A DNA stretch of 64,000 nt from Mumia sp. Pv4-285 (GTDB taxonomy: Bacteria > Actinomycetota > Actinomycetes > Propionibacteriales > Nocardioidaceae). Made by a program: the position numbers and the translations under genes. Shown piece after piece: positions 18,289 to 38,738 of the stretch. The notes under the pieces were generated by a model that ran no database searches, was not told the origin of the DNA, and saw nothing but the letters and a program-made list of their open reading frames with translations. The stretch is taken from NCBI RefSeq assembly GCF_041320275.1, contig NZ_CP162023.1:744001-808000 (forward strand), written 5' to 3'. Within the stretch, counting starts at the first letter, position 1; the number at the start of each line of letters is the position of its first letter.

Positions 18289-18306
18289 ATCACCTGCACG
18301 GGTGAT
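18289..18306. promoter_or_regulatory. Palindrome upstream of alkyl sulfatase copy 2
   Basis: ATCACC and GGTGAT form a perfect inverted repeat with a 6-nt spacer. It lies 67-84 nt upstream of the sulfatase start and at the very end of the relaxase remnant. It may be an operator, or half of a weak terminator for the relaxase. Confidence 0.3.
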
Positions 18307-21327: not shown

Positions 21328-21372
21328 CTTGTAATGAGGATGTCGCGGGTTCGACTCCTGTCACCGGCTCCA
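21328..21372 (+). mobile_element. tRNA 3'-half remnant: att site of an integrated element
   Basis: The 45 nt read as the 3' half of a tRNA: anticodon loop CTTGTAA (anticodon TGT, Thr), then the 3' anticodon strand, a 5-nt variable loop, a T arm with the TTCGACT loop, acceptor strand CACCGGC, T73 and an encoded CCA. The sequence upstream cannot pair with the anticodon stem, so the 5' half is missing. Site-specific integrases of actinobacterial ICEs leave exactly this kind of duplicated 3' half at the far end of the element. The element side should therefore be to the left, where the relaxase is. The intact tRNA is not in the window. Confidence 0.75.
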
Positions 21373-23501: not shown

Positions 23502-25235
23502 GTGCCGGAGAGATCTCACCGAAGCGTGGACCGAGAGCGACGCATGCGACTCGTCGAGGCGACGGCCAGAAGCTCGCAGGCCGAGCACGCCTCGATCAGC
23601 ACCTTCACGATCGCCGACTTCCTCGCGATGGGCGTCACGCTCGAGGGGGAGCCTGTCGTCGTCGCGGGCGAAGAGCACCTCGACCGAAGGATCCGGTGGC
23701 TCCATGTCACCGAGCTGGTGGACACGCACGGGCTCCTCCAGGGAGGCGAGCTGATCCTGGCGACCGGGGTCGGCCTCGCCGACTCGCCGGACGAGGGCGT
23801 CCGATATGTCGACGCCCTCGCCGACGAGAGGGTCGCCGGCCTCGTCATCGAGCTCGGACGCCGCTTCTCCGCAGTCCCTCCGGAGATGGTCCGGGCGTGC
23901 CGGCGCCGGGGACTCCCACTGATCGTGCTGAACAGGGAGGTGCCGTTCGTCAAGATGACCGAGACGGCCCACTCGATCATCCTGATGGGGCAGCGGCGGC
24001 TGCTGCAGACCACAGCGATGGCGCACCAGCGCTTCACCGAGCTGGGCGCCGCCGATGCGTCCGTGGACCAGCTTGTCGCTGCAGCCGGGGAGCTCGCCGA
24101 GGGGCAGATCGTGTTCTCCAACCTGATGTACCAGGTGCTGGCGGTTCACACGGTCGACGGCGTCGCCGACGACCTCCTGCGACGATGGAGCCGGAAGGCG
24201 TTCACCCTGACGCAGTCCTTCGGGACCCGGGTCGACGAGGCCGACCGCTGTGTGGTCGTGCCGGTCGAGGCCCGCGGTCAGCAGCGCGGGCGCCTGGTGC
24301 TCTTCACTTCAGGGCCGCCGGACCCGGCGCAGGTCATCGTCCTCGAACGCGCCGCATCGGCCTTGGCGATGCGGCTGCTGCTCGAGGACGACGACGTCGT
24401 GGTGGCGAACGCTCAGCGGACCGTGCTCGCCGACCTCGTCGCCGGACGCTGCTCCCGGACCGAGTCGATCCATGCACGTACGGCAGCCCTCGGGCACCCG
24501 ACCCGGCACCGCCACTATCTCCCGATCATCGTGGCTCCCGATCGTGAACGCGACTTGCGGTCAGTCCTGTCGCGCGCGCTCGACGATGTGCAGGTCGACG
24601 CCCTCGTCGGACGGTTGACGCCGGAGAGGTGGGGCGTCCTGCTCCTGCTCAAGCGCGCCGACGCCTCCGCGGCTGACGAGTTCGCGACGAAGGTCGCTCA
24701 GGCGTGCAAGGACGCGGGGGTTGCTCCTCCGACGCTCGGCCGTGGTGCTGTCGTCTCGGACCTCGCAGAGGTGGGGAGGTCGTTCGCCGAGGCGAGCGAC
24801 GTCGCGTCTGCGGCGCGAGCGACGTCGCCGATGGCGGGACGTCGGGTCCTCCACTCGATCGACGACATCAAGCTACGAGGCCTCCTTTACACCTTGCGGC
24901 ACGACGCCCGGCTCCAGGCGTTCGTCGAGCGGACGCTGGGGCCGCTGCAGCTGCGCGACGCGCTCGATGGGGGTGACTGGGTGCGCACGCTGGCGGCGTA
25001 CCTCCGGGTGCGCAGCAACAAGTCGCTCGCCGCGCAGCAGCTCGGGATCTCTCGACCGACGTTGTACGAACGCCTGGCGCGGATCCAACGTCTCCTCGGA
25101 GTGGACCTGGACGATCCCGAGACGACGACGTCCTTGTACGCCGCGATCATGGTGATCGAGGCCACCGCCGGCGACGCCTCGCCGACGTCCGCCCTCCCCT
25201 CCACGCTGGTGGTCCAGGCACAGACAGGTGCCTGA
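23502..25235 (+). CDS. PucR/CdaR-family transcriptional regulator
   Basis: The 577-residue protein has an N-terminal PucR-like ligand-binding domain (about residues 35-160, with HVTELVDTHGLLQGGELILATGVGL), a middle GGDEF-related region and a C-terminal helix-turn-helix (RVRSNKSLAAQQLGISRPTLYERLARIQRLLG) of the PucR type. Relatives activate catabolic operons in response to the substrate. I chose the GTG at 23502, preceded by GAAAGGA; the ATG at 23544 is the alternative. It lies just upstream of the dipeptide-type importer on the same strand, and could be its activator. Confidence 0.85.
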   Translation: MPERSHRSVDRERRMRLVEATARSSQAEHASISTFTIADFLAMGVTLEGEPVVVAGEEHLDRRIRWLHVTELVDTHGLLQGGELILATGVGLADSPDEGVRYVDALADERVAGLVIELGRRFSAVPPEMVRACRRRGLPLIVLNREVPFVKMTETAHSIILMGQRRLLQTTAMAHQRFTELGAADASVDQLVAAAGELAEGQIVFSNLMYQVLAVHTVDGVADDLLRRWSRKAFTLTQSFGTRVDEADRCVVVPVEARGQQRGRLVLFTSGPPDPAQVIVLERAASALAMRLLLEDDDVVVANAQRTVLADLVAGRCSRTESIHARTAALGHPTRHRHYLPIIVAPDRERDLRSVLSRALDDVQVDALVGRLTPERWGVLLLLKRADASAADEFATKVAQACKDAGVAPPTLGRGAVVSDLAEVGRSFAEASDVASAARATSPMAGRRVLHSIDDIKLRGLLYTLRHDARLQAFVERTLGPLQLRDALDGGDWVRTLAAYLRVRSNKSLAAQQLGISRPTLYERLARIQRLLGVDLDDPETTTSLYAAIMVIEATAGDASPTSALPSTLVVQAQTGA

Positions 25236-25307
25236 CCGACGGTCGGCGCTCCGCGTTGACAGCGTGTCAGGAACGCGGCTCCCACTCTGACACCCTGCGT
25301 ATACCCA

Positions 25308-25330
25308 CCAACTGGTCGGTTGCCTATGTT
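25308..25330 (+). promoter_or_regulatory. CCAAC-N6-GTTGC operator and -10 box of the peptide-importer operon
   Basis: CCAAC (25308-25312) and GTTGC (25319-25323) match the island-wide palindrome with one mismatch. TATGTT (25325-25330) follows directly and fits a -10 hexamer. A bound regulator would cover the space just upstream of the -10 box. Confidence 0.6.
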
Positions 25331-25428
25331 GGGTGCGAAGTCGCAGTGGCGGCCATCACACAGCTGGCTCGGTGGCGTGTTCCGTCGAGCGACCCCACAT
25401 CGGCGTCGTACGAGGAAGGGATTTGCAG

Positions 25429-26994
25429 ATGAAGGGTTGGCGGGTCTTGTCGCGGTCAGTGGCCTTAGCGGCCGCGCTCGGAGTGGTGCTGGCTGGATGC
25501 GGCGGAGGAGGGAGCGACGGCGGCGGCGGCGCTGCCGGAGAGCCGCAGAAGGGCGGGACCCTGACGTACGCCGTGAACGTCGAGACCGTCTCGCTCGATC
25601 CCGCGTTCTGCACCCTGTCGTTCGACCGCTGTGCCCCGATCTACGGGACGTTGATGCGCTACGACGTCGACAAGCAGCAGTTCGTCGGCCAGATGGCGGA
25701 GTCGTTCGAGAGCACCGACGGCAAGAGCTGGACCCTGAAGCTGCGCGAGGGCGTCGAGTTCAGCGACGGTACGCCCTTCGACGCTGAGGCGGTCGTCTAC
25801 AACTGGGACCGCATCAAGGACCCCAAGACATTGGCACCGTCGGCGCGCTACACCGAGGGACTGAGCTGGAAGGTCGTCGATCCGTTGACCGTCGCCGTGA
25901 CCTCGGCGGAGCCCAACTTCCAGCTTCCGTGGGCGCTCACCCAGGGACTGAGCACCATCGGCTCCCCGAAGGCCATCGAAGCAGCCGGCGAGGACGTCTC
26001 CAGCTCTCCGGTCGGAGCCGGCCCGTTCGTGCTGGACAAGTGGACGCGCAACTCGCAGGCCGAGTACTCGCGCAACGACAGCTACTTCGAGGAGGGCCTG
26101 CCGTACCTCGACAAGCTCGTGATCAAGGTGATCGGAGCCGATGACCAGCGGCTCAACGCGCTGCGCAGCGGTGAGATCGACGTCGACTGGTCGCTCCTGA
26201 CGAAGGACGCCAAGGCGATCGAGAGCGAGGGCGGCTACGACATCTACCGTGTGCCCCTCAATGGAGGGACCGGCCTGCAGTTCAACCTCAAGGACCCGGT
26301 CATGGCCGATGAGGGCCTCCGGCAGGCGATGCTGAGCGCCTTCGACAGCGCGCAGATCAACAATGCGGTCTACCCGGGCGACGAGCCGGTCGACGCCTTC
26401 CTGCGGCCGGACAGCCCCTACCGGGACGACGAGCTCGGCATGTTCCCGGAGAAGGACCTCGACGAGGCGCAACGTCTCTTCGACGACTATCTCGAGCGGA
26501 CCGGCAAGACGAGTGAGACCGTCACCTTCGTCTGCTACGCCGGGATCCCAGCCCTCGAGCAGGTCGCTCAGCTCATCCAGTCACAGATGTCGAAGATCGA
26601 GGGCCTGGACTTCAAGCTCGAGCCGGTCGACGGCGCGACGCTCTCGCAGCGCTCGACGGCACGTGACTTCCAGACCATCATGGGCGCCACGCTGTCCCAG
26701 GACATGGACCGCCTGTACGCCGTCTTCCACACCGACGGACCGCTCAACGTCATGAGCTACTCCAACCCGACCGTCGACGCCGCGCTCGAGACGACGCGTC
26801 GCTCGAACGAGCCGGGCGAGGTGGAGAAGGCGTACCAGACCGTCAACGGCGAGCTGTCCAAGGACGGGCCGCTGCGGAACTGGCGCTACCAGACGGGACA
26901 CCTCTTCGCGAACGACATGGTCCAGGGCATCGTGCTCGCCGGCACCTCGTCGGGAGCGAGCGCGTACTGGCAGTACGCGTGGCTGAACGAGTAG
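25429..26994 (+). CDS. Dipeptide/oligopeptide-type substrate-binding lipoprotein (SBP family 5)
   Basis: The 521-residue precursor has a signal peptide with lipobox VVLAGC followed by a Gly/Ser-rich linker. The family 5 binding fold starts at KGGTLTYAVNVETVSLDP and includes LREGVEFSDGTPFDAEAVVYNWDRI. It should capture the substrate outside the membrane and hand it to the permease pair downstream. The ATG at 25429 has a GAGGAAGGG site. Family 5 proteins bind peptides but also opines, nickel, haem and plant metabolites, so the ligand is open. A hairpin after the gene may keep its expression above that of the permeases. Confidence 0.9.
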   Translation: MKGWRVLSRSVALAAALGVVLAGCGGGGSDGGGGAAGEPQKGGTLTYAVNVETVSLDPAFCTLSFDRCAPIYGTLMRYDVDKQQFVGQMAESFESTDGKSWTLKLREGVEFSDGTPFDAEAVVYNWDRIKDPKTLAPSARYTEGLSWKVVDPLTVAVTSAEPNFQLPWALTQGLSTIGSPKAIEAAGEDVSSSPVGAGPFVLDKWTRNSQAEYSRNDSYFEEGLPYLDKLVIKVIGADDQRLNALRSGEIDVDWSLLTKDAKAIESEGGYDIYRVPLNGGTGLQFNLKDPVMADEGLRQAMLSAFDSAQINNAVYPGDEPVDAFLRPDSPYRDDELGMFPEKDLDEAQRLFDDYLERTGKTSETVTFVCYAGIPALEQVAQLIQSQMSKIEGLDFKLEPVDGATLSQRSTARDFQTIMGATLSQDMDRLYAVFHTDGPLNVMSYSNPTVDAALETTRRSNEPGEVEKAYQTVNGELSKDGPLRNWRYQTGHLFANDMVQGIVLAGTSSGASAYWQYAWLNE

Positions 26995-27018
26995 TCCCCG
27001 AGTAGTCCGCCACTCGGT

Positions 27019-27050
27019 GGGTGCGGGGCAACTCCCTCCGCCCCGCACCC
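27019..27050 (+). terminator. Intra-operon hairpin after the binding protein
   Basis: GGGTGCGGGGC and GCCCCGCACCC form a perfect 11-bp stem with a 10-nt loop, between the binding-protein stop and the permease start. It probably acts as a partial terminator or mRNA stabiliser, giving more binding protein than channel. Confidence 0.6.
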
Positions 27051-27085
27051 GCCGAACCGACAGCGAGTGAACGGATGGTCGAGAC

Positions 27086-28051
27086 ATGAATGTGGTGGTC
27101 TGGAGACGTCGTGCCAGCTCGGTGGCGAGGTTCTTCCTGCTCTTGTTCCTCGTCACGGTGGCAGTCTTCCTGCTCCTCGATCTGATCCCGGGGAACCCGG
27201 TCGACGCGATCCTCCCCCCGGACGCGACGGCCGAGCAGCGCGCCGCGGCGGCGGAGCAGTACGGCCTCAACGACCCGATGTGGCAGCGCTACCTCGACTG
27301 GCTCGGAGGGATCCTGCAGGGCGACTTCGGGCGCTCGTTCCAGACGGGCCTCAGCGTCTCGGACCAGATCCTCGAACGCGCACCGGTGTCGATCGAGCTG
27401 GCCGTCCTCGCAATGATCGTGGCGCTCGCCGTCTCGATCCCGGTCGGGGTCTGGTCGGCGTACCGCCCGGGCAGTGTCGTCGACCGTGCCTCCACCTTCA
27501 TGATCTCAGCGACGCTGGCCACGCCGGCCTTCGTCCTCGGCATCCTCCTGGTCTACGTCTTCGCCGTGAAGCTCGGCGTCCTGCCCGTGCTCGGGTGGGT
27601 CCCGTTCTCCGAGGACCCCGCCGAGCACGTCAAACGGCTGATCCTGCCTGTGATCACGCTGGCAGCCGGCGAGTGCGTCCTCTTCACCCGGCTCCTCAAG
27701 GGCGACATGATGGCCACCCTCCAGCAGGACCACGTGCTCTCGGCCCGCGCGCGAGGCCTCCCTACCCGGAGCATCCTCACGCGGCACTCCCTGCGGCAGT
27801 CCTCCTTCTCCCTGGTGACGGTCTCCGGTGTGGTCATCGGTCGACTCATCGGCGGCACCGTCCTCGTGGAGGCGATCTTCTCCCTCCCCGGGATGGGGAC
27901 GCTGGTGATCACCGCCATCCAGTCGCGGGACTACATCGTCGTGCAGGCCGTAGTCCTCCTCAGCGCGATCGTCTACCTGCTCATGAACACCCTCGTCGAT
28001 GTCTCGTACCCACTGCTCGACCCGCGCGTGAGGAAGGTGAGGACGTCATGA
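27086..28051 (+). CDS. Dipeptide-type ABC permease (DppB-like)
   Basis: The 321-residue inner-membrane protein has the first-helix motif FLLLFLVTVAVFLLLDLIPGNPVD, the LNDPMWQRYLDWLGGILQGDFGRSF loop typical of DppB, about six membrane segments, and the ATPase-contact region ARARGLPTRSILTRHSLRQS. The ATG at 27086 is 92 nt after the binding-protein gene. It pairs with the DppC-like permease through an ATGA overlap. Confidence 0.92.
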   Translation: MNVVVWRRRASSVARFFLLLFLVTVAVFLLLDLIPGNPVDAILPPDATAEQRAAAAEQYGLNDPMWQRYLDWLGGILQGDFGRSFQTGLSVSDQILERAPVSIELAVLAMIVALAVSIPVGVWSAYRPGSVVDRASTFMISATLATPAFVLGILLVYVFAVKLGVLPVLGWVPFSEDPAEHVKRLILPVITLAAGECVLFTRLLKGDMMATLQQDHVLSARARGLPTRSILTRHSLRQSSFSLVTVSGVVIGRLIGGTVLVEAIFSLPGMGTLVITAIQSRDYIVVQAVVLLSAIVYLLMNTLVDVSYPLLDPRVRKVRTS

Positions 28052-28950
28052 CCGAGCTCGTCCAGCAGCGACCTGGGCCGGAGAGCGCGACGGAGATCGA
28101 AGCACCGCTCGAGGTGTTCGACGAGCACGTACGACCGGTGCGGCGGCGCCGTGACTACGGGGCCTTCTTCGGCGTCGTGTGGATCGCGCTCGTCGCGCTG
28201 GCGGCGCTCCTGGCTGGCGTGCTGCCGATCCCGGACCCGAACGAGGTGACCAACTCGTTCAGTGCCATGCCGTCGGCGGACCATCTCCTCGGCACGGACG
28301 CTATCGGCCGGGATGTGCTGTCGCGGATCGTCTACGGAGCCCGCGTCTCGATGGCGGTCGCGATCGGAGCGACGAGCCTGTCGCTCCTCATCGGCGTCAC
28401 CATCGGGATGATCGCCGGATACTTCCGCGGTGCCGCCGACGCCACGAGCTCGCTGTTCGTGAACTTCATGCTGGCGTTCCCGCCGCTGATCTTCCTGATC
28501 GCCGTCGTCACCGCGCTCCAGCCGGGACTGCTGACGCTCGTGGTGGCGCTCGCGCTGGTCGGGATCCCCAACTTCGCCCGGGTGGCGCGCGCCAACACGA
28601 TCGCGTTCGCCGACCGGGAGTTCGTCACTGCCGCGAAGGCACTGGGCGCACGGCCGCTGCGCATCCTGACGCGCGAGCTCCTGGTCAACGTCATGCTGCC
28701 GATCCTGTCCCTCGCCCTCGTGGTGATGGCCACGCTCGTCGTCGCCGAGGGCAGCCTCAGCTTCCTCGGAGTCGGCGTCCCACCGCCGACGCCGAGCTGG
28801 GGCGGCATGTTGGCGGCGGGGCGCGAGTCGCTCAGCGACGAGCCGCAGCTCGTCCTCGTACCCGCCCTCTTCTTCTTCCTCACTGTCTTCTCGTTCAACA
28901 GGCTCGGCGACTGGGCGCGGGGCCGCGTCGGTAGGGAGTCCTCGATATGA
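28048..28950 (+). CDS. Dipeptide-type ABC permease (DppC-like)
   Basis: The 300-residue protein has a cytoplasmic N-terminal tail of about 45 residues, then membrane segments with the DppC marks HLLGTDAIGRDVLSRIVYGARVS, AKALGARPLRILTRELLVNVMLPI (the EAA contact loop) and GVPPPTPSWGGMLAAGRESL. It overlaps the DppB-like gene by 4 nt and the following ATPase gene by 4 nt. Confidence 0.92.
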   Translation: MTELVQQRPGPESATEIEAPLEVFDEHVRPVRRRRDYGAFFGVVWIALVALAALLAGVLPIPDPNEVTNSFSAMPSADHLLGTDAIGRDVLSRIVYGARVSMAVAIGATSLSLLIGVTIGMIAGYFRGAADATSSLFVNFMLAFPPLIFLIAVVTALQPGLLTLVVALALVGIPNFARVARANTIAFADREFVTAAKALGARPLRILTRELLVNVMLPILSLALVVMATLVVAEGSLSFLGVGVPPPTPSWGGMLAAGRESLSDEPQLVLVPALFFFLTVFSFNRLGDWARGRVGRESSI

Positions 28951-30068
28951 GCACCGGTACGGAACCGTTCGTGGACGATGCCGTGGTCGGCGACATCGAG
29001 CAGCACCAGAGCTTCCTCGAGGTCGAGAACCTCCGGGTGTGGTTCGGCACGCCTCGCGGGATGGTCCGTGCGGTCGACGGCGTCGAGCTGCAGCTGCGCA
29101 AGGGGGAGACACTCGGCGTCGTCGGCGAGTCGGGCTCGGGCAAGTCGGTGCTCTCCCGCGCGATCATGAAGATCCTTGCGCCCAACGCCCGCGTCCTGGA
29201 CGGCAGCCACATCAGGCTGGACGGCGTCGACCTCGCCACGGTGAACCCCAAGAAGAACAAGCACCTGTGGGGCGTCGACCTGGCGATGGTGTTCCAGGAC
29301 CCGATGACGTCGCTGACCCCGGTGGTCACCGTGGGGAAGCAGCTGACCGAGACGCTGCGCTACCACCTCGACCTGGACGCCAAGGCGGCGCGCGCGGAGG
29401 CCGTACGGTTGTTGAGCCTGGTGGGCATCCCCGAGCCGGAGAAGCGCTTCGACCAGTACCCGCACGAGCTCTCCGGCGGAATGCGGCAGCGCGTCACGAT
29501 CGCGCTGGCGATCTCGTGCTCGCCCAAGCTCCTGATCGCCGACGAGCCGACCACGGCGCTCGACGTCACGGTGCAGCACCAGATCCTCAACCTGCTGAGA
29601 GACCTCCAGGCGAGCTCCGGGATGGCGATGATCCTCATCACCCACGACCTCGGCGTCGTCGCCGGGCGGACCGACAACATCGCCGTGATGTACGCCGGGC
29701 GCGTCGTCGAGATGGCGCCGACCCGACGCCTCTTCTCCCACATGCGTCACCCGTACACGCGGGCGCTCATCGACGCGATCCCGAAGCTCGACCATCCGAG
29801 CCACACGAGGCTCGCGTCGATCCCCGGGCGACCCCCGACCATCGTCGATCCACCGCCAGGATGCAGCTTCGCCGCACGCTGCCCGTCCGCCCAGGACCGC
29901 TGCACGAAGGAGACCCCGACCTTGGTGACGACACCGGACTCCGAGCGCCACTCCGCGGCGTGCTTCTTCCCCCTCGGGACGCCCGAGGGAGACGTCGCTC
30001 GCCGGCGCAACATCGAAGCAGGCGTGACCGCGGCCGGAACGCCCGTCTTGTCGGGGGTGACGGTCTGA
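28947..30068 (+). CDS. Dipeptide-type ABC ATPase (DppD-like)
   Basis: The 373-residue ATPase has Walker A GESGSGKSV, the signature ELSGGMRQRVTIALAISC, Walker B LLIADEPTTALDV, and the oligopeptide-transporter C-terminal extension with the cysteine set GCSFAARCPSAQDRC typical of DppD/OppD. Translation is coupled on both sides (ATGA and TGATG overlaps). Confidence 0.92.
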   Translation: MSTGTEPFVDDAVVGDIEQHQSFLEVENLRVWFGTPRGMVRAVDGVELQLRKGETLGVVGESGSGKSVLSRAIMKILAPNARVLDGSHIRLDGVDLATVNPKKNKHLWGVDLAMVFQDPMTSLTPVVTVGKQLTETLRYHLDLDAKAARAEAVRLLSLVGIPEPEKRFDQYPHELSGGMRQRVTIALAISCSPKLLIADEPTTALDVTVQHQILNLLRDLQASSGMAMILITHDLGVVAGRTDNIAVMYAGRVVEMAPTRRLFSHMRHPYTRALIDAIPKLDHPSHTRLASIPGRPPTIVDPPPGCSFAARCPSAQDRCTKETPTLVTTPDSERHSAACFFPLGTPEGDVARRRNIEAGVTAAGTPVLSGVTV

Positions 30069-31132
30069 TGGCCGGCAGCGGGACGGCGCACCTGCGCGAC
30101 GAGCAGGACATCGTGCTCAGCGTCCGCAACCTGACGGTCGAGTACGTCGGGAGCCGGGGCGAACGTGTCTACGCGGTGTCGGACGTGAGCTTCGACGCGA
30201 GGCGAGGAGAGACGGTCGGACTGGTCGGCGAGTCCGGGTGCGGCAAGTCGAGCGTGGCGAAGGCCGTGATGCAGCTGCCGGCACCGACCTCCGGATCGAT
30301 CCTGCTGGAAGGGGCGGAGATCGCGGGTGCGAAGGGCGCCACCCTGCGCCGGCAGCGGCGCAAGCTGCAGATGATCTTTCAGGACCCGATCTCGTCACTC
30401 AACCCGCTCCGCAAGGTGAAGGACATCATCGCCGAAGGGCTTCGTGTCCAGGGCGGCAGCAGCAGGAAGGAGGTCGCGGCGCGGGTCCAGTCGATGATCG
30501 AACGGGTCGGGCTCGACCCGGACACGGCGTCCGACCGACGTCCGCACGAGTTCTCGGGCGGTCAGTGCCAGCGCATCTCCATCGCCCGCGCGATGGTGCT
30601 CGACCCCGAGGTGCTCATCTGCGACGAGCCGGTCTCCGCGCTCGACGTGTCGGTCCAGGCCCAGATCATGAACCTGCTCGAGGAGATGAAGGAGCGCTAC
30701 CAGCTCACGATGGTCTTCATCGCGCACGACCTCGCCGTGGTCAAGAACCTGAGCGACCGGATCGTCGTGATGTACCTCGGCAAGGTCTGCGAGGTGGCCA
30801 GCTCCGACGACCTCTTCGCGTCGCCGGCGCATCCCTACACGCGGGCGCTGGCCCAGTCGATCCCGGAACCGGACCCCGAGGCGCAGATCCAGGAAGCGGC
30901 CCTCTCCGGCGATCTCCCGTCACCGTTGAACCCACCGACGGGGTGCCGCTTCCGTACGAGATGTCCCTTGGCGCAGGAGGTCTGCGCGAGGGAGGAGCCG
31001 GAGGTCCGCGAGGTGCGTCCTGGCCGCTTCGCGGCCTGCCACTTCCCGCTGGACGAGTCGGCGACGGATGAGCCGCAGCTCGACACGTCGGCGCAGACAG
31101 ACCACTCCGCAGGGCGCGCAGTGGTCGCATGA
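30068..31132 (+). CDS. Dipeptide-type ABC ATPase (DppF-like)
   Basis: The 354-residue ATPase has Walker A GESGCGKSS, FQDPISSLNPLRKVKDIIAEGL, the signature EFSGGQCQRISIARAM, Walker B LICDEPVSALDV, and the C-terminal cysteine pattern GCRFRTRCPLAQEVC. The start ATG shares its A with the DppD stop. It completes a five-component importer; with no peptidase nearby, the imported solute need not be a peptide. Confidence 0.92.
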   Translation: MAGSGTAHLRDEQDIVLSVRNLTVEYVGSRGERVYAVSDVSFDARRGETVGLVGESGCGKSSVAKAVMQLPAPTSGSILLEGAEIAGAKGATLRRQRRKLQMIFQDPISSLNPLRKVKDIIAEGLRVQGGSSRKEVAARVQSMIERVGLDPDTASDRRPHEFSGGQCQRISIARAMVLDPEVLICDEPVSALDVSVQAQIMNLLEEMKERYQLTMVFIAHDLAVVKNLSDRIVVMYLGKVCEVASSDDLFASPAHPYTRALAQSIPEPDPEAQIQEAALSGDLPSPLNPPTGCRFRTRCPLAQEVCAREEPEVREVRPGRFAACHFPLDESATDEPQLDTSAQTDHSAGRAVVA

Positions 31133-31155: not shown

Positions 31156-32034
31156 ATGGCTGAGGGAGAGGTCGAGGTCAACGGCGGGGTCGTGGTGTAC
31201 GAGTTCGTCGGTCCGGAGGACGGCGAGGTGGTGGTGCTGACGCCGGGTGGTCGGTTCGGCAAGGACTACGGCGGTGTCCATGAGCTGGCGGAGGCGTTGG
31301 CTGCGGGTGGCAAGCGGGTGCTGCTGTGGGATCGGCCGAACTGTGGTCGTTCGGACGTGCAGCTGTACGGGCGGTCGGAGTCGCACATGCGGGCGGAGAC
31401 GCTCGGGTTGATGCTCGACGTGCTCGGGATCGAGAAGGTCGTCGCGGCCGGGGGATCGGGCGGTGCCCGGGACATGATCGTGTTCACGATGATGTATCCG
31501 CAGAAGGTCACGAAGCTGTTGACCTGGTGCATCGTCGGGGGCACGTTCTCCACGATGAGTCTGGCGGGTGTGTACGTGCTGCCGGAGCTTCGGGCGGTTC
31601 GTGCTGGGGGGATCGAGGCGGTGCTCTCGATTCCTGGTGCGGCGGGGAGCTGGGCGGATCTGTGCGAGGCGAACCCTCGGAACAAGGAGCGGCTGCTGGA
31701 GGTCGGGGCCGAGGAGTTCGAGCGGGTGATGGAGCGTTGGTTCGACGCGTACATCCCGAAGGCGAACGAGGCGATCCCGGGTGTGGCTGACTGGGAGTTC
31801 GCGCAGGTCAAGGTTCCGACGCTGATCGTGCGTGGGGGTGTGAAGGACTACGACCACCCGGCGCGGACGTCGCGGGAGGTGCTGTCGCTGATCGAGGGTG
31901 CGCGGCTGATCGAGCCGCCGTGGCCCGAGGACGCCTGGGAGCAGGCCGCGGCGGCCACCGGACAGGGCCGAGGCAGCCTGTTCGACTTCTGGCAGCTGGG
32001 CGCTCCCGAGTTCCTCGCCTTCATCGACGAGTGA
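31156..32034 (+). CDS. Alpha/beta-hydrolase-fold protein, tandem copy 1
   Basis: The 292-residue protein has the hydrolase fold with oxyanion region TPGGRFGKDYGG and nucleophile elbow AAGGSGGARD. The usual catalytic histidine is not seen: where relatives read DHLPW near the C terminus, this one reads PPWPEDAW. I prefer the ATG at 31156 with a GAGGAAGG site; the ATG at 31129 overlaps the ATPase stop and remains possible. Codons ending in G or T (GGT, GTG, TTG, CGG) are clearly more frequent than in the neighbours. A 777-bp core is identical to the next gene. It may cleave C-C or ester bonds; the substrate is unknown. Confidence 0.85.
   Translation: MAEGEVEVNGGVVVYEFVGPEDGEVVVLTPGGRFGKDYGGVHELAEALAAGGKRVLLWDRPNCGRSDVQLYGRSESHMRAETLGLMLDVLGIEKVVAAGGSGGARDMIVFTMMYPQKVTKLLTWCIVGGTFSTMSLAGVYVLPELRAVRAGGIEAVLSIPGAAGSWADLCEANPRNKERLLEVGAEEFERVMERWFDAYIPKANEAIPGVADWEFAQVKVPTLIVRGGVKDYDHPARTSREVLSLIEGARLIEPPWPEDAWEQAAAATGQGRGSLFDFWQLGAPEFLAFIDE
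31168..31944 (+). repeat. 777-bp direct repeat, unit 1
   Basis: By my reading this stretch is identical base for base to 32089-32865, an offset of 921 bp. It spans most of the hydrolase gene and ends at the codon for DAWEQ, after which the two genes diverge sharply. Confidence 0.9.
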
Positions 32035-32070: not shown

Positions 32071-32979
32071 ATGGAGATGCCCGACGCCGAGGTCGAGGTC
32101 AACGGCGGGGTCGTGGTGTACGAGTTCGTCGGTCCGGAGGACGGCGAGGTGGTGGTGCTGACGCCGGGTGGTCGGTTCGGCAAGGACTACGGCGGTGTCC
32201 ATGAGCTGGCGGAGGCGTTGGCTGCGGGTGGCAAGCGGGTGCTGCTGTGGGATCGGCCGAACTGTGGTCGTTCGGACGTGCAGCTGTACGGGCGGTCGGA
32301 GTCGCACATGCGGGCGGAGACGCTCGGGTTGATGCTCGACGTGCTCGGGATCGAGAAGGTCGTCGCGGCCGGGGGATCGGGCGGTGCCCGGGACATGATC
32401 GTGTTCACGATGATGTATCCGCAGAAGGTCACGAAGCTGTTGACCTGGTGCATCGTCGGGGGCACGTTCTCCACGATGAGTCTGGCGGGTGTGTACGTGC
32501 TGCCGGAGCTTCGGGCGGTTCGTGCTGGGGGGATCGAGGCGGTGCTCTCGATTCCTGGTGCGGCGGGGAGCTGGGCGGATCTGTGCGAGGCGAACCCTCG
32601 GAACAAGGAGCGGCTGCTGGAGGTCGGGGCCGAGGAGTTCGAGCGGGTGATGGAGCGTTGGTTCGACGCGTACATCCCGAAGGCGAACGAGGCGATCCCG
32701 GGTGTGGCTGACTGGGAGTTCGCGCAGGTCAAGGTTCCGACGCTGATCGTGCGTGGGGGTGTGAAGGACTACGACCACCCGGCGCGGACGTCGCGGGAGG
32801 TGCTGTCGCTGATCGAGGGTGCGCGGCTGATCGAGCCGCCGTGGCCCGAGGACGCCTGGGAGCAGCGCGGCGTACGACGCCGCGACGGCGAGGACGTCGG
32901 CTTCGAGTTCTGGGTCGACGGCGCGCCGTCGTTCCTCGCCTTCATCGATGAGCAGACCATCGACGGGGAAACGGCGTGA
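32071..32979 (+). CDS. Alpha/beta-hydrolase-fold protein, tandem copy 2
   Basis: The 302-residue protein is identical to the preceding copy from VEVNGG to DAWEQ. It differs in its first six residues and in its last 44, which end FEFWVDGAPSFLAFIDEQTIDGETA. The divergent tails still share an F-FW-GAP-FLAFIDE pattern, so both genes descend from an old duplication whose cores were later made uniform. It has its own GAGG-type site and overlaps the MFS gene by 4 nt. Like copy 1, it lacks the expected C-terminal histidine. Confidence 0.85.
   Translation: MEMPDAEVEVNGGVVVYEFVGPEDGEVVVLTPGGRFGKDYGGVHELAEALAAGGKRVLLWDRPNCGRSDVQLYGRSESHMRAETLGLMLDVLGIEKVVAAGGSGGARDMIVFTMMYPQKVTKLLTWCIVGGTFSTMSLAGVYVLPELRAVRAGGIEAVLSIPGAAGSWADLCEANPRNKERLLEVGAEEFERVMERWFDAYIPKANEAIPGVADWEFAQVKVPTLIVRGGVKDYDHPARTSREVLSLIEGARLIEPPWPEDAWEQRGVRRRDGEDVGFEFWVDGAPSFLAFIDEQTIDGETA
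32089..32865 (+). repeat. 777-bp direct repeat, unit 2
   Basis: Second unit of the identical repeat at 31168-31944. The intervening 144 bp contain the divergent tail of copy 1, the intergenic gap and the start of copy 2. Confidence 0.9.
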
Positions 32980-34457
32980 TCCGTACCCGAGACCGTCATC
33001 CCGTCCCGCCGTGGGCGACCATCGGCGTGCTCGCCGTGACGGGTGTCCTCGCGGCGCTGCAGGGGACGCTGCTGCTTCCGCTCGTGTCGCGGCTGCCGGA
33101 GATCTACGGGGTCGGGACGGTCGAGGCCTCGTGGATCATCACGGCGACGATGCTCGCCGGGGCACTGGCGACGCCGATCGTCTCCCGGCTCGCCGACATG
33201 TACGGCAAGCGGCGCCTCGTCCTCCTCGCGCTCGTCGTGCTCCTCGTCGGTTCGGTGATGCTCGCGCTCACCGAGGACTACGCCGTGGCGCTCGTCGGCC
33301 GCACGCTGCAGGGCGTGACCGCGTCGGTCCTCCCGGTCTCGATGAGCATCCTCAAGGACGTCCTTCCCCCCGAGCGCGTCGGCTCCGGGATCGCCCTGGT
33401 GAGCGCCACCCTCGGGATCGGTTCGGCCGTCGGGCTCCCGCTGGCGGGCCTGCTGTACGGCTCGCTCGGCTACAGCTCGCTTTTCTGGCTCGTCGCGGGG
33501 TTCGCCGGGCTGCTGGCGCTCGCCGCCTGGTGGCTCCTCCCTCGCGGAGCACCCGACGGCAGGAAAGAGCGGTTCGACGGGGTCGGCGCCGTCCTGCTGG
33601 CCATGGGACTGGTGCCGTTCCTGCTCGTCCTCTCCCAGGGGAACACCTGGGGATGGGCGAGCGCCACGACGCTCTCCCTCCTCGTCGCGGCCGTGGTCGC
33701 GGTCGCGGTGTGGGTTCCCTGGGAGCTGCGCAAGCACGAGCCGTTGATCGATCTGAGACTGACCGCTCGTCGCCCGGTCCTCCTGACGAACGTCGCCTCG
33801 GTGATCATCGCGCTCGGGCTCCTCTCGAACCTGCTGCTCGCCTCGCTGCAGTTCGGCAGCCCCGCCGAGATCGAGGCAGGGCTCGGCCTCACCGCCGGCC
33901 AGACCGGTCTGGCGATGGCGCTGCCCGCTGCCGTCTTCGTGGTCGCCGCCCCGCTGCTCGGTCTGCTGCTGCGCCGGTACGGCGGACGTCTCGTCCTGTT
34001 GTCGGGCTCGCTGACGATGGCGGTCGCGTACGCGCTGCGGGTGCTTCTGGACGACACCGTTGCGCATGTCGTGCTCGGTTCGGTGCTGATCGGCGCAGGC
34101 AGCACGCTCGCGATGGCGGCCATGCCGATGATCATCATGTCGGCCGTGCCGCGACGTCACACGGCGTCGGCGAACGGCGTCAACTCGCTGTGCCGGATGA
34201 TCGGTACCTCGGCGTCCACCGCGGCGTTGGCCGCCCTGACGTCCGCGACCGCCGTCGTGGTCGGCGGTCACGAGTTCCCGACGCTCACCACCATCCACGT
34301 CACGTGCTGGGTGCTCGCCGGCGCAGGCGTCGTCGCGAGCGTCCTCGTGTGGTTCATCCCGCGCGACACCGCGAACGAGCTCCCAGATCAGAGGCTTGTG
34401 GGACGCGAGATCCCTGCAGCCTCGACATTCCCGCAGTACCGTCTAGCGGAGCAATAA
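32976..34457 (+). CDS. MFS transporter, DHA2-type (14 membrane segments)
   Basis: The 493-residue membrane protein has the MFS motif A loop ADMYGKRRLV after helix 2 and motif C-like glycines in GIALVSATLGIGSAVGLPLAG, the mark of proton-driven antiporters. Length and segment count fit the 14-helix DHA2 group. The GTG start overlaps the hydrolase stop by 4 nt, so it belongs to the importer-hydrolase operon, where it may export a product or toxic intermediate. Confidence 0.88.
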   Translation: MIRTRDRHPVPPWATIGVLAVTGVLAALQGTLLLPLVSRLPEIYGVGTVEASWIITATMLAGALATPIVSRLADMYGKRRLVLLALVVLLVGSVMLALTEDYAVALVGRTLQGVTASVLPVSMSILKDVLPPERVGSGIALVSATLGIGSAVGLPLAGLLYGSLGYSSLFWLVAGFAGLLALAAWWLLPRGAPDGRKERFDGVGAVLLAMGLVPFLLVLSQGNTWGWASATTLSLLVAAVVAVAVWVPWELRKHEPLIDLRLTARRPVLLTNVASVIIALGLLSNLLLASLQFGSPAEIEAGLGLTAGQTGLAMALPAAVFVVAAPLLGLLLRRYGGRLVLLSGSLTMAVAYALRVLLDDTVAHVVLGSVLIGAGSTLAMAAMPMIIMSAVPRRHTASANGVNSLCRMIGTSASTAALAALTSATAVVVGGHEFPTLTTIHVTCWVLAGAGVVASVLVWFIPRDTANELPDQRLVGREIPAASTFPQYRLAEQ

Positions 34458-34513: not shown

Positions 34514-35593
34514 ATGAACGCACCACGTGGTCACCTGATCGACGCGAGCGTCCAGGTGTTCTTCAAGTCCGATGCTGACCTACGCACCTACCTGCGCGAG
34601 CCCTTCAAGAGCCGGGGCTATCCGCACGTGGACGTCGCCTGGTTCGCCCCGCCCGGCCCGAGGTACGTCGAGGGATCGGACAACCCCGACGGGACCCACC
34701 CCGGATCCGACCCCGAGCAGGTCGGCAAGGTGATCCTCGACGACCGAGGCTTCGACTTCGCGATCCTGCACCCGATGACCGCGGCATCGATCCTCCCCGA
34801 CTGGCACCTCGGCACGGCCATCCTCTCCGCAACCAACCAGATGCTGGTCGAGCGGTGGCTGGAGTCCGACACCTACGCTGACCGGTTCCGCGGCACGATC
34901 CGGGTCAATCCGCGCGACATCGACGGCGCGGTCCGTGAGATCGAGCGTTGGAAGGGGCATCCGCGCATCGTGCAGATCGGGCTCCCGATGCAGACCGAGG
35001 AGCCGTACGGGCGGTCCCACTTCAAGCCGCTCTGGCGGGCCGCCTGCGACGCGAACCTCCCGGTCGCGGTCCACCTGGAGATGGGTGCGGGGATCACGCA
35101 CCCTCCGACACCGTCGGGCATCACGCGTACGTACTCCCACCTCGCGGCGTACCAGCCGATGACCTTCGTCTGGCACCTCCTCAACATGATCGCGGAGGGG
35201 GTCTTCCAGGAGTTCCCCGATCTCAAGGTGGTGTGGACCGACGGGGCGGCCGACATGCTGACACCGTTCATCTGGCGGTTCGACACCTTCGGCCGACCGC
35301 ACCTGGAGCAGACGCCGTGGTCGCCGAACATCCCCAGCTCGTACCTGCCCGACCACGTCTACTTCGTGAACGGACTGCTCGACGGTCCTGGTGACGCGGA
35401 CTTCGCCGACGAGTGGCTCCGGATGACCGGCAAGGAGGACATGCTCCTCTTCGGCTCGAGCTACCCGAGCTGGCAGACCGTCGGTCCCGACGACCTCCCC
35501 AGAGCCTGGAGCGACGACCAGCGAGCAAAGGTGCTCGGTGGCAACGCGGCCACCCTCTACGGGCTCGATGCCGCCGTGCCGGCACCCGCCTGA
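34514..35593 (+). CDS. Amidohydrolase-2 family protein with a degenerate metal site
   Basis: The 359-residue protein has the ACMSD-like amidohydrolase-2 fold and aligns with the next gene over its length. The metal ligands are mostly gone: the N-terminal DxDxH block is DASVQ (residues 10-14), the Glu-His pair after beta 6 is Asp243-Gly244, and the final SSDYPH aspartate is Ser316 in GSSYPS. Only His187 of HLEMG is kept. It is thus probably not a metal hydrolase by itself, and may be a structural or allosteric partner of the intact paralogue at 35638. The ATG at 34514 follows a GAGAGAGAG-rich site. Confidence 0.82.
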   Translation: MNAPRGHLIDASVQVFFKSDADLRTYLREPFKSRGYPHVDVAWFAPPGPRYVEGSDNPDGTHPGSDPEQVGKVILDDRGFDFAILHPMTAASILPDWHLGTAILSATNQMLVERWLESDTYADRFRGTIRVNPRDIDGAVREIERWKGHPRIVQIGLPMQTEEPYGRSHFKPLWRAACDANLPVAVHLEMGAGITHPPTPSGITRTYSHLAAYQPMTFVWHLLNMIAEGVFQEFPDLKVVWTDGAADMLTPFIWRFDTFGRPHLEQTPWSPNIPSSYLPDHVYFVNGLLDGPGDADFADEWLRMTGKEDMLLFGSSYPSWQTVGPDDLPRAWSDDQRAKVLGGNAATLYGLDAAVPAPA

Positions 35594-35637
35594 ATCGACC
35601 CACCAACGATCGGCCACTCCACGAGAGGAAGAGACAG

Positions 35638-36786
35638 ATGACGATCGACACGACGAAAGAACGCAAGGTCGGCTCCGAGCAGGTGCAGGTTCGCGTGGTC
35701 GACAGCGATGTCCACCCGACTCCGCGCTACGGAGAGATCGACCAGTTCATCTCGGACAGCCTGCGCAAGCTGCTCGCGCAGCGCAGTGCGATGGCCGGCA
35801 ATCCGGTGTACTACGACGCGCCCGACTACAACCACGCGTACGCGATGAGGACCGACTCGTTCCCCGACGACGGCAACTTCGCCGGGTCCGATCCCGACCT
35901 CACGTTCCGGCAGCTGATCATGGACGCCGGCTCTGACATCGCGATCCTCGGTCCTCTCCCGAACGGCGGGCAGACCGACGAGGAGGCACACGAGATCGCC
36001 TCCGCGTACAACAAGTGGCAGGACAAGTGCTGGCTCGACAGCGAGAACAACTGGCACCAGCGCTACCGCGGCTCGATCTGCGCCGCGATCGAGATGCCGG
36101 AGGCGGGCGCTCGTGAGATCGAGGAGTGGGTGGGACACCCGTACATGTCCCAGGTCCTCATCAGCGCCGAGATGCGTCCCTCCTGGGGGCACCCGAAGTA
36201 CGACCCCATCTGGGAGGCTGCGACCCGCCACGACATCCCTGTCGCGTGCCACCTCGGGCGAGGCCAGCACAACGAGCTGCCGATGTCACCGGTCGGGTTC
36301 ATGACGTACAACCACGACCTGATGGTCTCCTACTCGATGCTCGCCGCGAACCAGGTCATGAGCCTGATCTTCGACGGCGTGTTCGATCGCTTCCCGACGC
36401 TGAAGATCGTGTTCATCGAGCACGCGTTCAACTGGGTCCTGCCGCTGATGTGGCGGATGGACGCGATCTACGCGGCGCGTGGGCCGGAGAACGGTCTGAG
36501 GCGCAAGCCGTCCGACTACGTCAAGGACCACATCTGGTTCACGACCCAGCCCCTGGACTATCCGGAGGACAAGCTCGAGCTCACCCACGCGCTCGAGTGG
36601 ATGGAGGCCGACAAGCTCCTGCTGTTCTCGTCGGACTACCCGCACTGGACGTTCGACGACCCGCAGTGGGTGGCCAAGCACATGCCCGAGCAGTGGCGGG
36701 ACAAGATCATGTTCGAGAACTCGATCGAGCTCTTCAAGCTGCCGAGCACGGTTCCTGCTCTGCCCGGTCAGAAGAGGCCGTACTAG
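35638..36786 (+). CDS. Amidohydrolase-2 family enzyme (ACMSD-like), intact metal site
   Basis: The 382-residue enzyme keeps the expected metal ligands: DSDVH at residues 22-26, His205 in HLGRG, Glu261-His262 in IEHAFNW, and Asp333 in SSDYPHW. Relatives hydrolyse C-C, C-N or decarboxylate ring-cleavage products such as 2-amino-3-carboxymuconate semialdehyde. It has an AGAGGAAGAG site, follows its degenerate paralogue by 44 nt, and abuts the Rieske gene. The context suggests action on an intermediate made by the associated redox proteins. Confidence 0.88.
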   Translation: MTIDTTKERKVGSEQVQVRVVDSDVHPTPRYGEIDQFISDSLRKLLAQRSAMAGNPVYYDAPDYNHAYAMRTDSFPDDGNFAGSDPDLTFRQLIMDAGSDIAILGPLPNGGQTDEEAHEIASAYNKWQDKCWLDSENNWHQRYRGSICAAIEMPEAGAREIEEWVGHPYMSQVLISAEMRPSWGHPKYDPIWEAATRHDIPVACHLGRGQHNELPMSPVGFMTYNHDLMVSYSMLAANQVMSLIFDGVFDRFPTLKIVFIEHAFNWVLPLMWRMDAIYAARGPENGLRRKPSDYVKDHIWFTTQPLDYPEDKLELTHALEWMEADKLLLFSSDYPHWTFDDPQWVAKHMPEQWRDKIMFENSIELFKLPSTVPALPGQKRPY

Positions 36787-37182
36787 ATGCGCGAGAGAGA
36801 GACGGTCAAGGCGCCTCTCGCCCGAGGGCGCGAGCACGTCGTCGCGACCGTGGACGAGATCGAGCCCGGCGCATCGAAGGTCGTCCCGATCGGGCGGTAC
36901 GGCGTGGGCGTCTACAACGTGAACGGCAAGTTCTACGCGATCGCCAACTACTGCCCTCACGAGGGCGGACCGCTGTGCGGAGGTCGTACCCACGGCCAGA
37001 CGGTCGTCGACACCGACCTGCCCGGTGGCGCCGCGGAGGTGAGGGACGGCGAGTTCATCTACTGCCCCTGGCACCAGTGGGGGTTCGAGCTCGCCACCGG
37101 GACGACCGCCGTCAAGCCGGAGTGGAGCATCCGGACGTACCCCGTCCGGATCGACGGCGACAACGTCATCGTGACGGCATGA
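36787..37182 (+). CDS. Rieske-type [2Fe-2S] protein with a long loop between the ligand motifs
   Basis: The 131-residue protein has the two Rieske ligand boxes: C56-P-H58 in NYCPHEGG and C93-P-W-H96 in YCPWHQWGFE. The loop between them is 34 residues, against 15-17 in typical Rieske ferredoxins and oxygenases, and contains an extra cysteine in LCGG. There is no membrane anchor or oxygenase domain, so it is likely a soluble electron carrier. The ATG comes straight after the amidohydrolase stop, so translation should be coupled. Confidence 0.88.
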   Translation: MRERETVKAPLARGREHVVATVDEIEPGASKVVPIGRYGVGVYNVNGKFYAIANYCPHEGGPLCGGRTHGQTVVDTDLPGGAAEVRDGEFIYCPWHQWGFELATGTTAVKPEWSIRTYPVRIDGDNVIVTA

Positions 37183-37192
37183 GAGGACATCG

Positions 37193-38494
37193 ATGAGCCT
37201 GACAGCAGACGACGCCGTCTCCATGGAGGTGGTCGCGTCCTACCCGAGCATCGAGCCGCGTCTCCTGACGGAGCTTGCCGAACGCGAGGATCTCGCCGCG
37301 TACCTCGCGACCGGGGGATACGCCGCGGTCGACGACGCCGACCGGCTGCTGGACGACGTCCTGCAGGCCGGCGTACGGGGCCGTGGCGGTGCGGCCTTCC
37401 CGATCAGCCAGAAGATCGCGACGGTACGCGCGAACGGCTCACCGGTCGTGGTTGCCAACGGAGAGGAGGGCGAGCCTGCCTCGGTCAAGGACCGGTGGCT
37501 GCTCCGGCACCGCCCGCACCTCGTCCTCGACGGGTTGCGGCTCGCCGGGACCATGACGGGCAGCGACACCCTCCACCTCTACGTCTCCGACCCGACCAGC
37601 GCCCTCAGCGTCGAGCTGGCGCTGGACGAGCTCGCCGGGAGCGGAGTCTGGGACGCGCGGGTCACGGTGACCGTCGTCGAGCCGTCGTACGTGGCCGGGG
37701 AGGAGACCGCTGCCGTCCAGGCGTTGAACGGTGGCCCGGCCCTCCCGACCGACAAGCCGCCACGCCCGTTCGAGGAGGGCGTCGGTGGTCGGCCGACCAT
37801 GGTGAGCAACGTCGAGACGCTGGCGAACCTGCCGGTAGTCCAGCGCCTGGGGCCGAGCCTCTACCGCGAGGTCGGCACCGACACCTCGCCGGGCACCTTT
37901 CTGCTGACGCTCACCGGGTGCCGTTCGGCCGGCCTGTACGAGGTGCCGTTCGGCGAGACGCTGCGGTCGGTGCTGAGCTGGCTCGGGGAGGACGTCGGGT
38001 CGGTCGGCGGCTTCCTGATGGGCGGCTACTTCTCCGGGGTGGTCGGGCCGCAGGCGCTCGACGTCCCGCTCGACTACGACGCGATGAAGGCTGCCGCCAG
38101 CGGGCTCGGCTGTGGCGCGGTGTCGGTGATCTCGTCGACCCTCTGTCCGGTCGCGGTCTCCGCGGCGGTGATGGCGTACTTCGCACGCGAGAACGCGGGG
38201 CAGTGCGGGTCCTGCTTCAACGGAACGGCGGCGATGAGCGCGGTGCTCGGTGCGCTCGGTGACCACCGGGCGCAGGAGTCGGACGTGGAGCGCCTGCGCC
38301 ACTGGTCGACTTTCCTCCGGGGGCGTGGAGCGTGCGGGACGCTGGACGGCGCGACGAACGTCGCCGCGAGCCTGCTGCGCGAGTTCCCGGACCTCGTCTC
38401 CGCGCACCTCGACGACGGCTGCAGCACCTGCGCCGCCGTCGCCGACCGACTGTCCGATCCGCCGTTCGCCGTGGCCCTGCCCACGGCGAGCTGA
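37193..38494 (+). CDS. NuoF-like FMN/NADH flavoprotein (complex I 51-kDa family) with an altered Fe-S site
   Basis: The 433 residues cover the FMN/NADH-binding region (RGRGGAAFP, VVANGEEGEPASVKDRWLLRHRPH), the SLBB region, and the 4Fe-4S domain. In NuoF the cluster motif is ESCGKCTPC plus a distant Cys; here it reads ENAGQCGSC, so the first ligand is Ala335 while Cys338, Cys341 and Cys381 remain. No NuoE or other complex I gene is nearby. Beside a Rieske protein and a ferredoxin, it probably oxidises NADH and passes electrons to them. The ATG has a GAGG site. Confidence 0.88.
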   Translation: MSLTADDAVSMEVVASYPSIEPRLLTELAEREDLAAYLATGGYAAVDDADRLLDDVLQAGVRGRGGAAFPISQKIATVRANGSPVVVANGEEGEPASVKDRWLLRHRPHLVLDGLRLAGTMTGSDTLHLYVSDPTSALSVELALDELAGSGVWDARVTVTVVEPSYVAGEETAAVQALNGGPALPTDKPPRPFEEGVGGRPTMVSNVETLANLPVVQRLGPSLYREVGTDTSPGTFLLTLTGCRSAGLYEVPFGETLRSVLSWLGEDVGSVGGFLMGGYFSGVVGPQALDVPLDYDAMKAAASGLGCGAVSVISSTLCPVAVSAAVMAYFARENAGQCGSCFNGTAAMSAVLGALGDHRAQESDVERLRHWSTFLRGRGACGTLDGATNVAASLLREFPDLVSAHLDDGCSTCAAVADRLSDPPFAVALPTAS

Positions 38495-38516: not shown

Positions 38517-38738
38517 GTGAAGATCAAGCTCGACCGAACACTGTGCGACGGTTTCGGCCTCTGTGCCGCCCACGCCCCGGAGACGTTCTCCCTCGACGAG
38601 TGGGGCTACGTCTCGCTCGCCGGGACCGGGGAGGTGGCGCCGGAGGACGAGGAGGGCGTGCGGCGCGCCCTGCTCGACTGCCCCGTCCACGCGATCCTGA
38701 CGCTGCCGTCCCCGCAGCCGGCGATCGCCAGCTCGTAG
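38517..38738 (+). CDS. Small [3Fe-4S]-type ferredoxin
   Basis: The 73-residue acidic protein has C10-x5-C16 and C55-P, the three-cysteine pattern of actinobacterial [3Fe-4S] ferredoxins that feed cytochrome P450s and oxygenases. The GTG at 38517 follows GAGAGGAG. It is 22 nt after the NuoF-like gene, which suggests that the flavoprotein is its reductase. Confidence 0.85.
   Translation: MKIKLDRTLCDGFGLCAAHAPETFSLDEWGYVSLAGTGEVAPEDEEGVRRALLDCPVHAILTLPSPQPAIASS

Follow-up and report, generated by a model that had tools for sequence, protein, structure and literature searches.

We analyzed a 64,000-nucleotide stretch (the window; positions 744,001 to 808,000 of contig NZ_CP162023.1) of the genome of Mumia sp. 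Pv4-285, which is a single 4.65-Mb contig. The subject of this work is a pair of adjacent genes in the window, here called H1 and H2, which encode proteins of the amidohydrolase-2 family (PF04909):

34514–35593, plus strand: H1 (359 aa), a PF04909 paralogue without dinuclear ligands, proposed to be a non-catalytic subunit
35638–36786, plus strand: H2 (382 aa), a PF04909 protein with all six ligands of a dinuclear oxygenase, proposed to be the catalytic subunit

The two genes are separated by 44 nt, H2 starting with an ATG at 35638. An earlier note, made from the DNA letters alone, had described them as adjacent, mutually aligned amidohydrolase-2 genes, and both position and family proved correct: PF04909 is matched above its cut-off by H1 (83.2 bits) and H2 (100.7 bits), and the two proteins are 31% identical over 301 residues (E 2e-42). 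Neither matched an NCBIfam model at E 0.001. Further PF04909 genes occur elsewhere in the genome that carries the pair (L001, L006, and L084).

The nearest solved chains found by sequence and profile searches are 8sm7, 8sm8, 8sm6, and AibH1 for H1, and 8sm7, AibH2, 8sm9, and 8sm6 for H2. These searches point to the amidohydrolase-related dinuclear oxygenases (AROs; Liu et al., 2024, PMC10811679); here and below, published systems are described from parts of the cited articles. Single-chain AlphaFold2 models, which the earlier note had called for, were confident and ARO-like for both proteins, with a predicted local distance difference test score (pLDDT) of 83.8 for H1 and 84.9 for H2 and a predicted template modelling score (pTM) of 0.88 for each. 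The best solved match of the H1 model is 8sm7_A (Z 42.9, root-mean-square deviation 2.2, 341 residues aligned), and it also matches 8ful_F, an AibH2 chain by its numbering (Z 40.5), and 6m1w_A, AibH1 (Z 39.4); the H2 model matches 8sm7_A (Z 42.5), 8sm6_C (Z 42.1), and 8fun_B (Z 41.0). PF04909 decarboxylases reach only about Z 30 in the same comparison. Pfam matches and models with Z scores above 40 thus place H1 and H2 alike in the PF04909 TIM-barrel fold of the AROs.

The two proteins differ in their metal ligands. The dinuclear site of AibH2 is built from D25, H27, H211, E265, D337, and H340, and the mononuclear metal of AibH1 is held by D24, H26, H201, E255, and D328 (PMC7782822). In our family alignment, the AibH2 ligand columns hold D24, H26, H205, E261, D333, and H336 in H2, with six of six kept, whereas they hold S12, Q14, H187, D243, S316, and S319 in H1, which retains one histidine of the six (H187) and a Glu shortened to Asp (D243). 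The ARO set of three histidines and three carboxylates is therefore complete in H2 only, so that we do not class H1 as an ARO catalyst, and the five AibH1 ligands (Site 0) read S, Q, H, D, and S in H1. AibH1 itself carries all six residues in the alignment, so these positions do not explain why it holds a single metal, and H1 has degenerated further than AibH1. The His-x-His motif on the first strand of hydrolytic and decarboxylating PF04909 enzymes, which is His9/His11 in the decarboxylase ACMSD (PMC11650718), is found in neither protein, H2 having D-x-H and H1 having S-x-Q. Most of this had been read correctly from the letters alone, namely that H2 keeps Asp24/His26, His205, Glu261, and Asp333, and that H1 keeps His187 and has changed its first-strand, Glu, and final-Asp ligands. 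However, His262 of H2 had been taken for a ligand and the Gly of H1 in its place for a loss; since AibH2 and 8sm7 have Glu-Gly there, His262 is not a ligand and the Gly is no ligand loss. The sixth ligand column, H336 in H2 and S319 in H1, had been overlooked.

Ligand patterns were compared among 46 distinct H1s from 61 rows, with position 12 covered in 43, and 45 distinct H2s. Asp is found neither at position 12 (0/43 covered rows) nor at position 316 (0/46), and position 243 is Asp instead of Glu in all 46; His is found at position 14 in 37 of the 46 and at position 319 in 32, with Asp at the latter in eight. Listed in the order 12, 14, 187, 243, 316, and 319, the patterns are SHHDSH (26 H1s), SHHDSD (six), SQHDSS (two, the window and L009), GHHDSS (two), -HHDSD (two), CTHDNH (two), and, once each, SHHDSQ, SEHDSS (L079), CQHDGH, -QHDSH, CQRDSH, and CQHDQH. 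Three histidines are kept in 26 of the 46 H1s, and His187 is the sole remaining ligand in three, those of the window, its nearest relative Mumia xiangluensis (L009), and L079. The H1s of four loci, which we treat as a second type beside the main type, have Q14 throughout and Arg at position 187 in one. Ligand loss in H1 is graded in this comparison: neither Asp survives in any covered row, the Glu is replaced throughout, and the histidines at positions 14 and 319 have gone piecemeal, in some lineages. The degenerate positions that the earlier note had proposed to follow in other genomes are thus conserved in part. Among the H2s, 44 of 45 read DHHEDH and one --HEDH, its first two ligands missing in the called frame, and the 56 comparison rows outside H1 (29 H2s plus 27 AROs and solved chains, with one ARO locus entered twice) have no loss at the six columns wherever the residue is covered, which sets the losses in H1 apart from chance.

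It is possible that H1 still binds one metal and so corresponds to AibH1 with an altered Site 0; most relatives would use a three-His/one-Asp site (H14, H187, H319, and D243), and the window lineage would use replacement ligands. The frequency of the S-H-H-D-S-H pattern, the Asp319 of eight H1s, and the appearance of new invariant polar residues, H86 and E189, at barrel strand ends in the 25 main-type rows would fit such a site. By contrast, both Asp are gone wherever the positions are covered, the window H1 is left with H187 (and D243 for the Glu), and the second type has Q14 in its four loci and an Arg187 in one of them. We consider a metal-holding H1 unlikely; on the sequences compared, H1 is best read as a partner that does not catalyze and that holds little metal or none.

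The two genes were paired in every locus examined, a pairing that the note had suggested should be looked for. In a search of named genomes, H2 lies just downstream of H1 in 11 of 11 loci, including one in which H2 is frameshifted (L012 11126–12273 in Phytohabitans suffuscus, where a sequencing error or a real break splits it over two frames). Among 396 genomes of the phylum, at least 23 have an H1-profile match at 1e-40, comprising at least 13 main-type H1 loci in 12 genomes and at least four second-type loci in four genomes; H2 is a neighbor in all 17, and the other matches are H2s or single AROs. At least 28 of 394 genomes of the class hold H1, and the loci found there have H1 first and H2 downstream on the same strand in 30 of 30 (gap −1 to 213 nt), although half of them (15) had already been counted in the surveys above. 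The main type is present in at least three of 197 genomes of the family, which indicates a patchy distribution. All of these survey counts are lower bounds, as at most five candidates (phylum and class) or ten (family) were scored per genome. Plasmid records matching H1 number 134, and the two examined, both from Rhodococcus, are also paired; they fall outside both types, beside the H1 and H2 clades.

In a FastTree phylogeny of 84 proteins, H1 and H2 form sister clades, the support being 1.0 for either clade and also for the node that joins them, and AibH1 and AibH2 fall with two other pairs in a separate cluster (0.998). When the Rhodococcus plasmid pairs are added, support is 0.98 for the union, 0.999 for the H1 side, and 0.99 for the H2 side. 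The trees were rooted by midpoint, and under this rooting the H1/H2 pair does not share an origin with the AibH1/AibH2 pair. Sequence and comparison thus show, within that rooting, a duplication of its own for H1 and H2, and the separate clusters suggest that heteromeric AROs evolved at least twice.

H1 is not a gene in decay. The ratio of nonsynonymous to synonymous substitution rates (dN/dS, Nei-Gojobori) is 0.038–0.257 for H1 in nine comparisons and 0.095–0.254 for H2, and GC content at third codon positions is 0.90 in H1 and 0.92 in H2. Decay is ruled out by these ratios together with the open frames of relatives. The assertion that H1 is not simply decaying is therefore upheld, and the loci and dN/dS bear out that H1 has been kept beside a ligand-bearing paralogue despite the loss of its metal site. 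Two other second-type matches (G096:C6 and G835) were flagged with one internal TGA.

Constraint is also seen in the old pocket. Seven residues (R130, D243, D247, T250, W301, K307, and G314) are shared by all 29 H1 rows and absent from the 56 other rows, and Arg130, Gln160, and Asp243 are invariant across the 29, as are H86 and E189 within the main type. The mean frequency of the top residue is 0.82 in the H1 pocket vs. 0.75 over the whole protein, compared with 0.87 vs. 0.77 in H2. Arg130 may replace the charge of the metal. A speculative and rather improbable extension is that the emptied site has become a new functional site, in which a polar cluster of Arg130, Gln160, His187, and Asp243 with Asp10 takes the place of the metal and either senses substrate, product, or redox state or performs metal-free chemistry, switching H2. 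If so, the graded loss from three histidines to one would record a metalloenzyme subunit becoming a metal-free regulator. For the new metal-free chemistry that had been put forward for H1, we found no positive evidence beyond the constraint on the old pocket.

The conserved pocket could also be taken to mean that H1 and H2 are separate enzymes of one pathway, with H1 working without metal as a lyase, hydratase, or decarboxylase on what H2 produces; some characterized PF04909 enzymes are said to need no cofactor (PMC10811679). We regard this as very unlikely, because H1 is nearest to AROs and not to lyases, H1 and H2 are sister clades, H1 was never found alone in the loci examined, and the adjacent H1 and H2 of the AibH1H2 precedent are both required (PMC7782822).

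The genes that follow H2 point toward oxygenation:

36787–37182, plus strand: small Rieske [2Fe-2S] protein (PF00355, 49.9 bits), proposed electron donor to H2
37193–38494, plus strand: NuoF-like NADH-oxidizing flavoprotein (Complex1_51K, PF01512, 109 bits; NADH_4Fe-4S, PF10589, 64 bits), proposed reductase
38517–38738, plus strand: small ferredoxin (PF13459, 52 bits; C10, C16, and C55), proposed relay

The Rieske gene begins immediately past the stop codon of H2. Neighborhoods were counted in 24 main-type and four second-type loci, 28 in total, and the Rieske gene, which adjoins other AROs as well, is present in all 28. Its CxH...CxxH motif is well conserved, with C56 and H58 in 29 of 29 sequences and C93 and H96 in 28, the other having a gap. 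The NuoF-like gene is present in 24 of the 28 loci and missing from the four second-type loci; its C338 and C341 are conserved in 24 of 25 sequences (one gap) and C381 in 23 of 25. The NuoF-like protein has Ala at what we take to be the first Cys of the NuoF cluster motif. It also has extra conserved cysteines (C307, C318, C410, and C413), and its gene lies beside the Rieske gene and not beside other recognized complex I genes. The ferredoxin gene is found in 23 of the 28 loci, and its three cysteines are conserved in 24 of 24 sequences.

The pair could also be an ordinary metal-dependent hydrolase or decarboxylase accompanied by a decaying duplicate; the database labels call these proteins amidohydrolases, and a hydrolase is what the earlier note had assumed. 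This reading is hardly tenable and we rejected it: the HxH motif is in neither protein, H2 has the full ARO ligand set, the Rieske gene is in 28 of 28 loci, and H1 is intact, with a confident fold and under purifying selection. An O2-activating dinuclear monooxygenase is indicated instead by the H2 ligands, by the nearest structures, and by the Rieske and reductase neighbors, and the Rieske, NuoF-like, and ferredoxin genes after H2 indicate that it is probably a multicomponent one. No aib-type dehydrogenase, transporter, or hydroxymethyltransferase was named in the family scans near H1H2, an indirect look at 2-aminoisobutyric acid (Aib) as the substrate, and we therefore propose no substrate.

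We thus interpret H1 and H2 as two parts of a single O2-dependent monooxygenase, heteromeric and multicomponent, that belongs to the ARO type and functions in the manner of AibH1H2, in which H1 would be non-catalytic and without the structural metal of AibH1, and we put the probability of this at about 75%. The proposal builds on the ligand states, pairing, neighborhood, duplication, purifying selection, and fold prediction, which sequence and comparison show. H2 would bind a Mn/Fe or Fe/Fe center and carry out C-H oxidation, with electrons presumably taken from NADH by the NuoF-like protein and relayed to H2 by the ferredoxin and then the Rieske protein. As the TIM-barrel partner, H1 would complete the quaternary structure and lie next to the active site of H2, to which it probably lends Arg255 across the interface. 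In ACMSD, Arg239 enters the active site of the neighboring subunit (PMC11650718), and the profile-match ranges (213–345 to 204–333) place this residue at Arg255 of H1 if the stretch is ungapped. All 46 H1s have Arg at position 255, as do all 45 H2s in that column, which is Lys in AibH1, Arg in AibH2, and His in SfbO. The H1 ancestor would have lost both Asp ligands and shortened the Glu, after which the window lineage lost two histidines, leaving His187 and Asp243, so that H1 may no longer need the structural metal that AibH1 holds.

Other genes to the left of the pair are less constant:

21572–22015, plus strand: protein of 147 aa matched by neither Pfam nor NCBIfam, in 17 of the 28 loci
22019–23308, minus strand: regulator with two tandem TetR-type DNA-binding domains (PF00440, two stretches), a neighbor in some relatives
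23502–31132, plus strand: PucR-type regulator and peptide/nickel-type ATP-binding cassette (ABC) importer (binding protein, two permeases, and two ATPases)
31156–32034, plus strand: tandem duplicate of the next gene (alpha/beta hydrolase), their DNA being 96.8% identical over 871 columns
32071–32979, plus strand: alpha/beta hydrolase (PF00561), a conserved neighbor
33027–34457, plus strand: major facilitator superfamily (MFS) transporter (PF07690, 198 bits on a longer frame from 32976)

A relative of the alpha/beta hydrolase is found in 22 of the 28 loci. The tandem copies differ at their C-terminal ends, and L009 and L011 likewise carry two copies. The PucR/ABC importer block (seen in L011, L012, L019, and L079) and the MFS transporter (in L009, L019, and L079) are optional, and C64 of the 147-aa protein is invariant in 18 of 18 sequences. 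Of all the neighboring genes counted, the Rieske gene is the only one found in the four second-type loci; other misses fall at contig ends (ferredoxin in L017, hydrolase in L010 and L015).

Further to the left, a 26-base stretch (window 21347–21372) is identical to genome positions 704545–704570, 60.8 kb away, where an intact tRNA-Thr (TGT) has its 3′ end, and a TrwC-type relaxase gene (18306–21182) lies just inside this repeat. This looks like an integrative element with its right end just left of the H1H2 cluster. Two converging alkylsulfatase-like genes (14414–16372 and 16318–18222) lie inside the putative element.

Among the closest known systems, and a solved precedent for the kind of hetero-oligomer that the earlier note had put forward, is AibH1H2 of Rhodococcus wratislaviensis (PDB 6m1w, 6m2i, and 8ful-8fuo), an alpha2alpha'2 tetramer whose hydroxylated product is formed only when H1, H2, G (Rieske), and F (reductase) are together (PMC7782822). 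Both systems have adjacent PF04909 genes followed by Rieske and reductase genes, and in both one subunit has the six-residue dinuclear site, which is Mn/Fe in AibH2 (PMC10401708), and the other lacks a dinuclear center. They differ in that AibH1 holds one metal through five of the six residues, whereas the window H1 keeps one of six, and in that the pairs come from separate duplications. The orphan AROs 8sm7, 8sm8, and 8sm9 and SfbO rank among the top sequence and fold matches of H1 and H2, and share the six ligands of H2 and a Rieske neighbor. PtmU3 is likewise a dinuclear PF04909 hydroxylase (fold match to H1, Z 32.2).

Several observations weigh against a heteromer of the AibH1H2 kind with a metal-free H1. 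The window has a NuoF-like reductase and a three-Cys ferredoxin in place of an AibF-type reductase. The contact between AibH1 Lys282 and AibH2 Asp342 (PMC12141560) is lost on both sides in the H1/H2 clade; the residues here are Thr, Ser, Cys, or Val with Thr or Ser, so a coupled change, which we looked for, neither proves nor excludes the same interface. Asp342 is also a second-sphere residue whose loss lowers AibH2 activity (PMC10401708), and its column is Thr338 in the window H2. Work on SfbO-type AROs used each His-tagged protein by itself, and the part of the article drawn on here mentions no partner subunit (PMC10811679); PtmU3, which is more distant, works without a partner subunit (PMC10401708). 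In addition, three pair-bearing genomes hold an extra H2 relative with no H1 recognized in the 19-kb stretch around it. These relatives (L081 9398–10543, L082 9365–10510, and L083 9284–10426) are 65–66% identical to the window H2. As 26 of the 46 H1s have three histidines and Asp243, most relatives could still bind a metal. Finally, Arg130 is present in the H2 relatives of both Rhodococcus plasmids, which weakens its strict specificity for H1 and with it the idea of charge replacement, and Lys307 is missing from the H1s of these plasmids.

Under the heteromeric reading, H1 bears on a question raised by AibH1H2 itself. The role of AibH1 and its metal has been called elusive, and substitutions aimed at its metal site gave insoluble protein (Powell et al., 2023, PMC10401708), a problem repeated in a 2025 review (PMC12141560). 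H1 is therefore a natural test of whether the site is needed: in the H1 clade, ligands of the AibH1 type have been lost and a catalytic-type subunit still adjoins in every locus examined. Comparison of the window H1 with the three-His H1s and AibH1 makes the role of the partner metal testable, and the pair offers a natural way to ask what silent, metal-less partner subunits do. Our analysis also suggests a different electron path, through a NuoF-like protein, a three-Cys ferredoxin, and a Rieske protein, in the young Mn/Fe oxygenase family. In the portions seen of the open-access literature naming AibH1H2, a ligand-less partner is not described, and the open-access text seen held no further ARO work or NuoF-like/Rieske arrangement that could be connected with the H1H2 pair.

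A further counterpart is encoded on plasmid pRHL2 of R. jostii RHA1 and annotated only as amidohydrolases. RHA1_RS42060 groups with the H1s (0.999) and is missing the carboxylates that they lack (C, T, H, D, N, and H), and RHA1_RS42070 falls in the H2 clade (0.99) with six of six ligands, a Rieske gene lying between the two. This pair differs from that of the window in its order, H2-Rieske-H1, and in having a PDR/VanB-type reductase, presumably closer in type to AibF, instead of a NuoF-like one.

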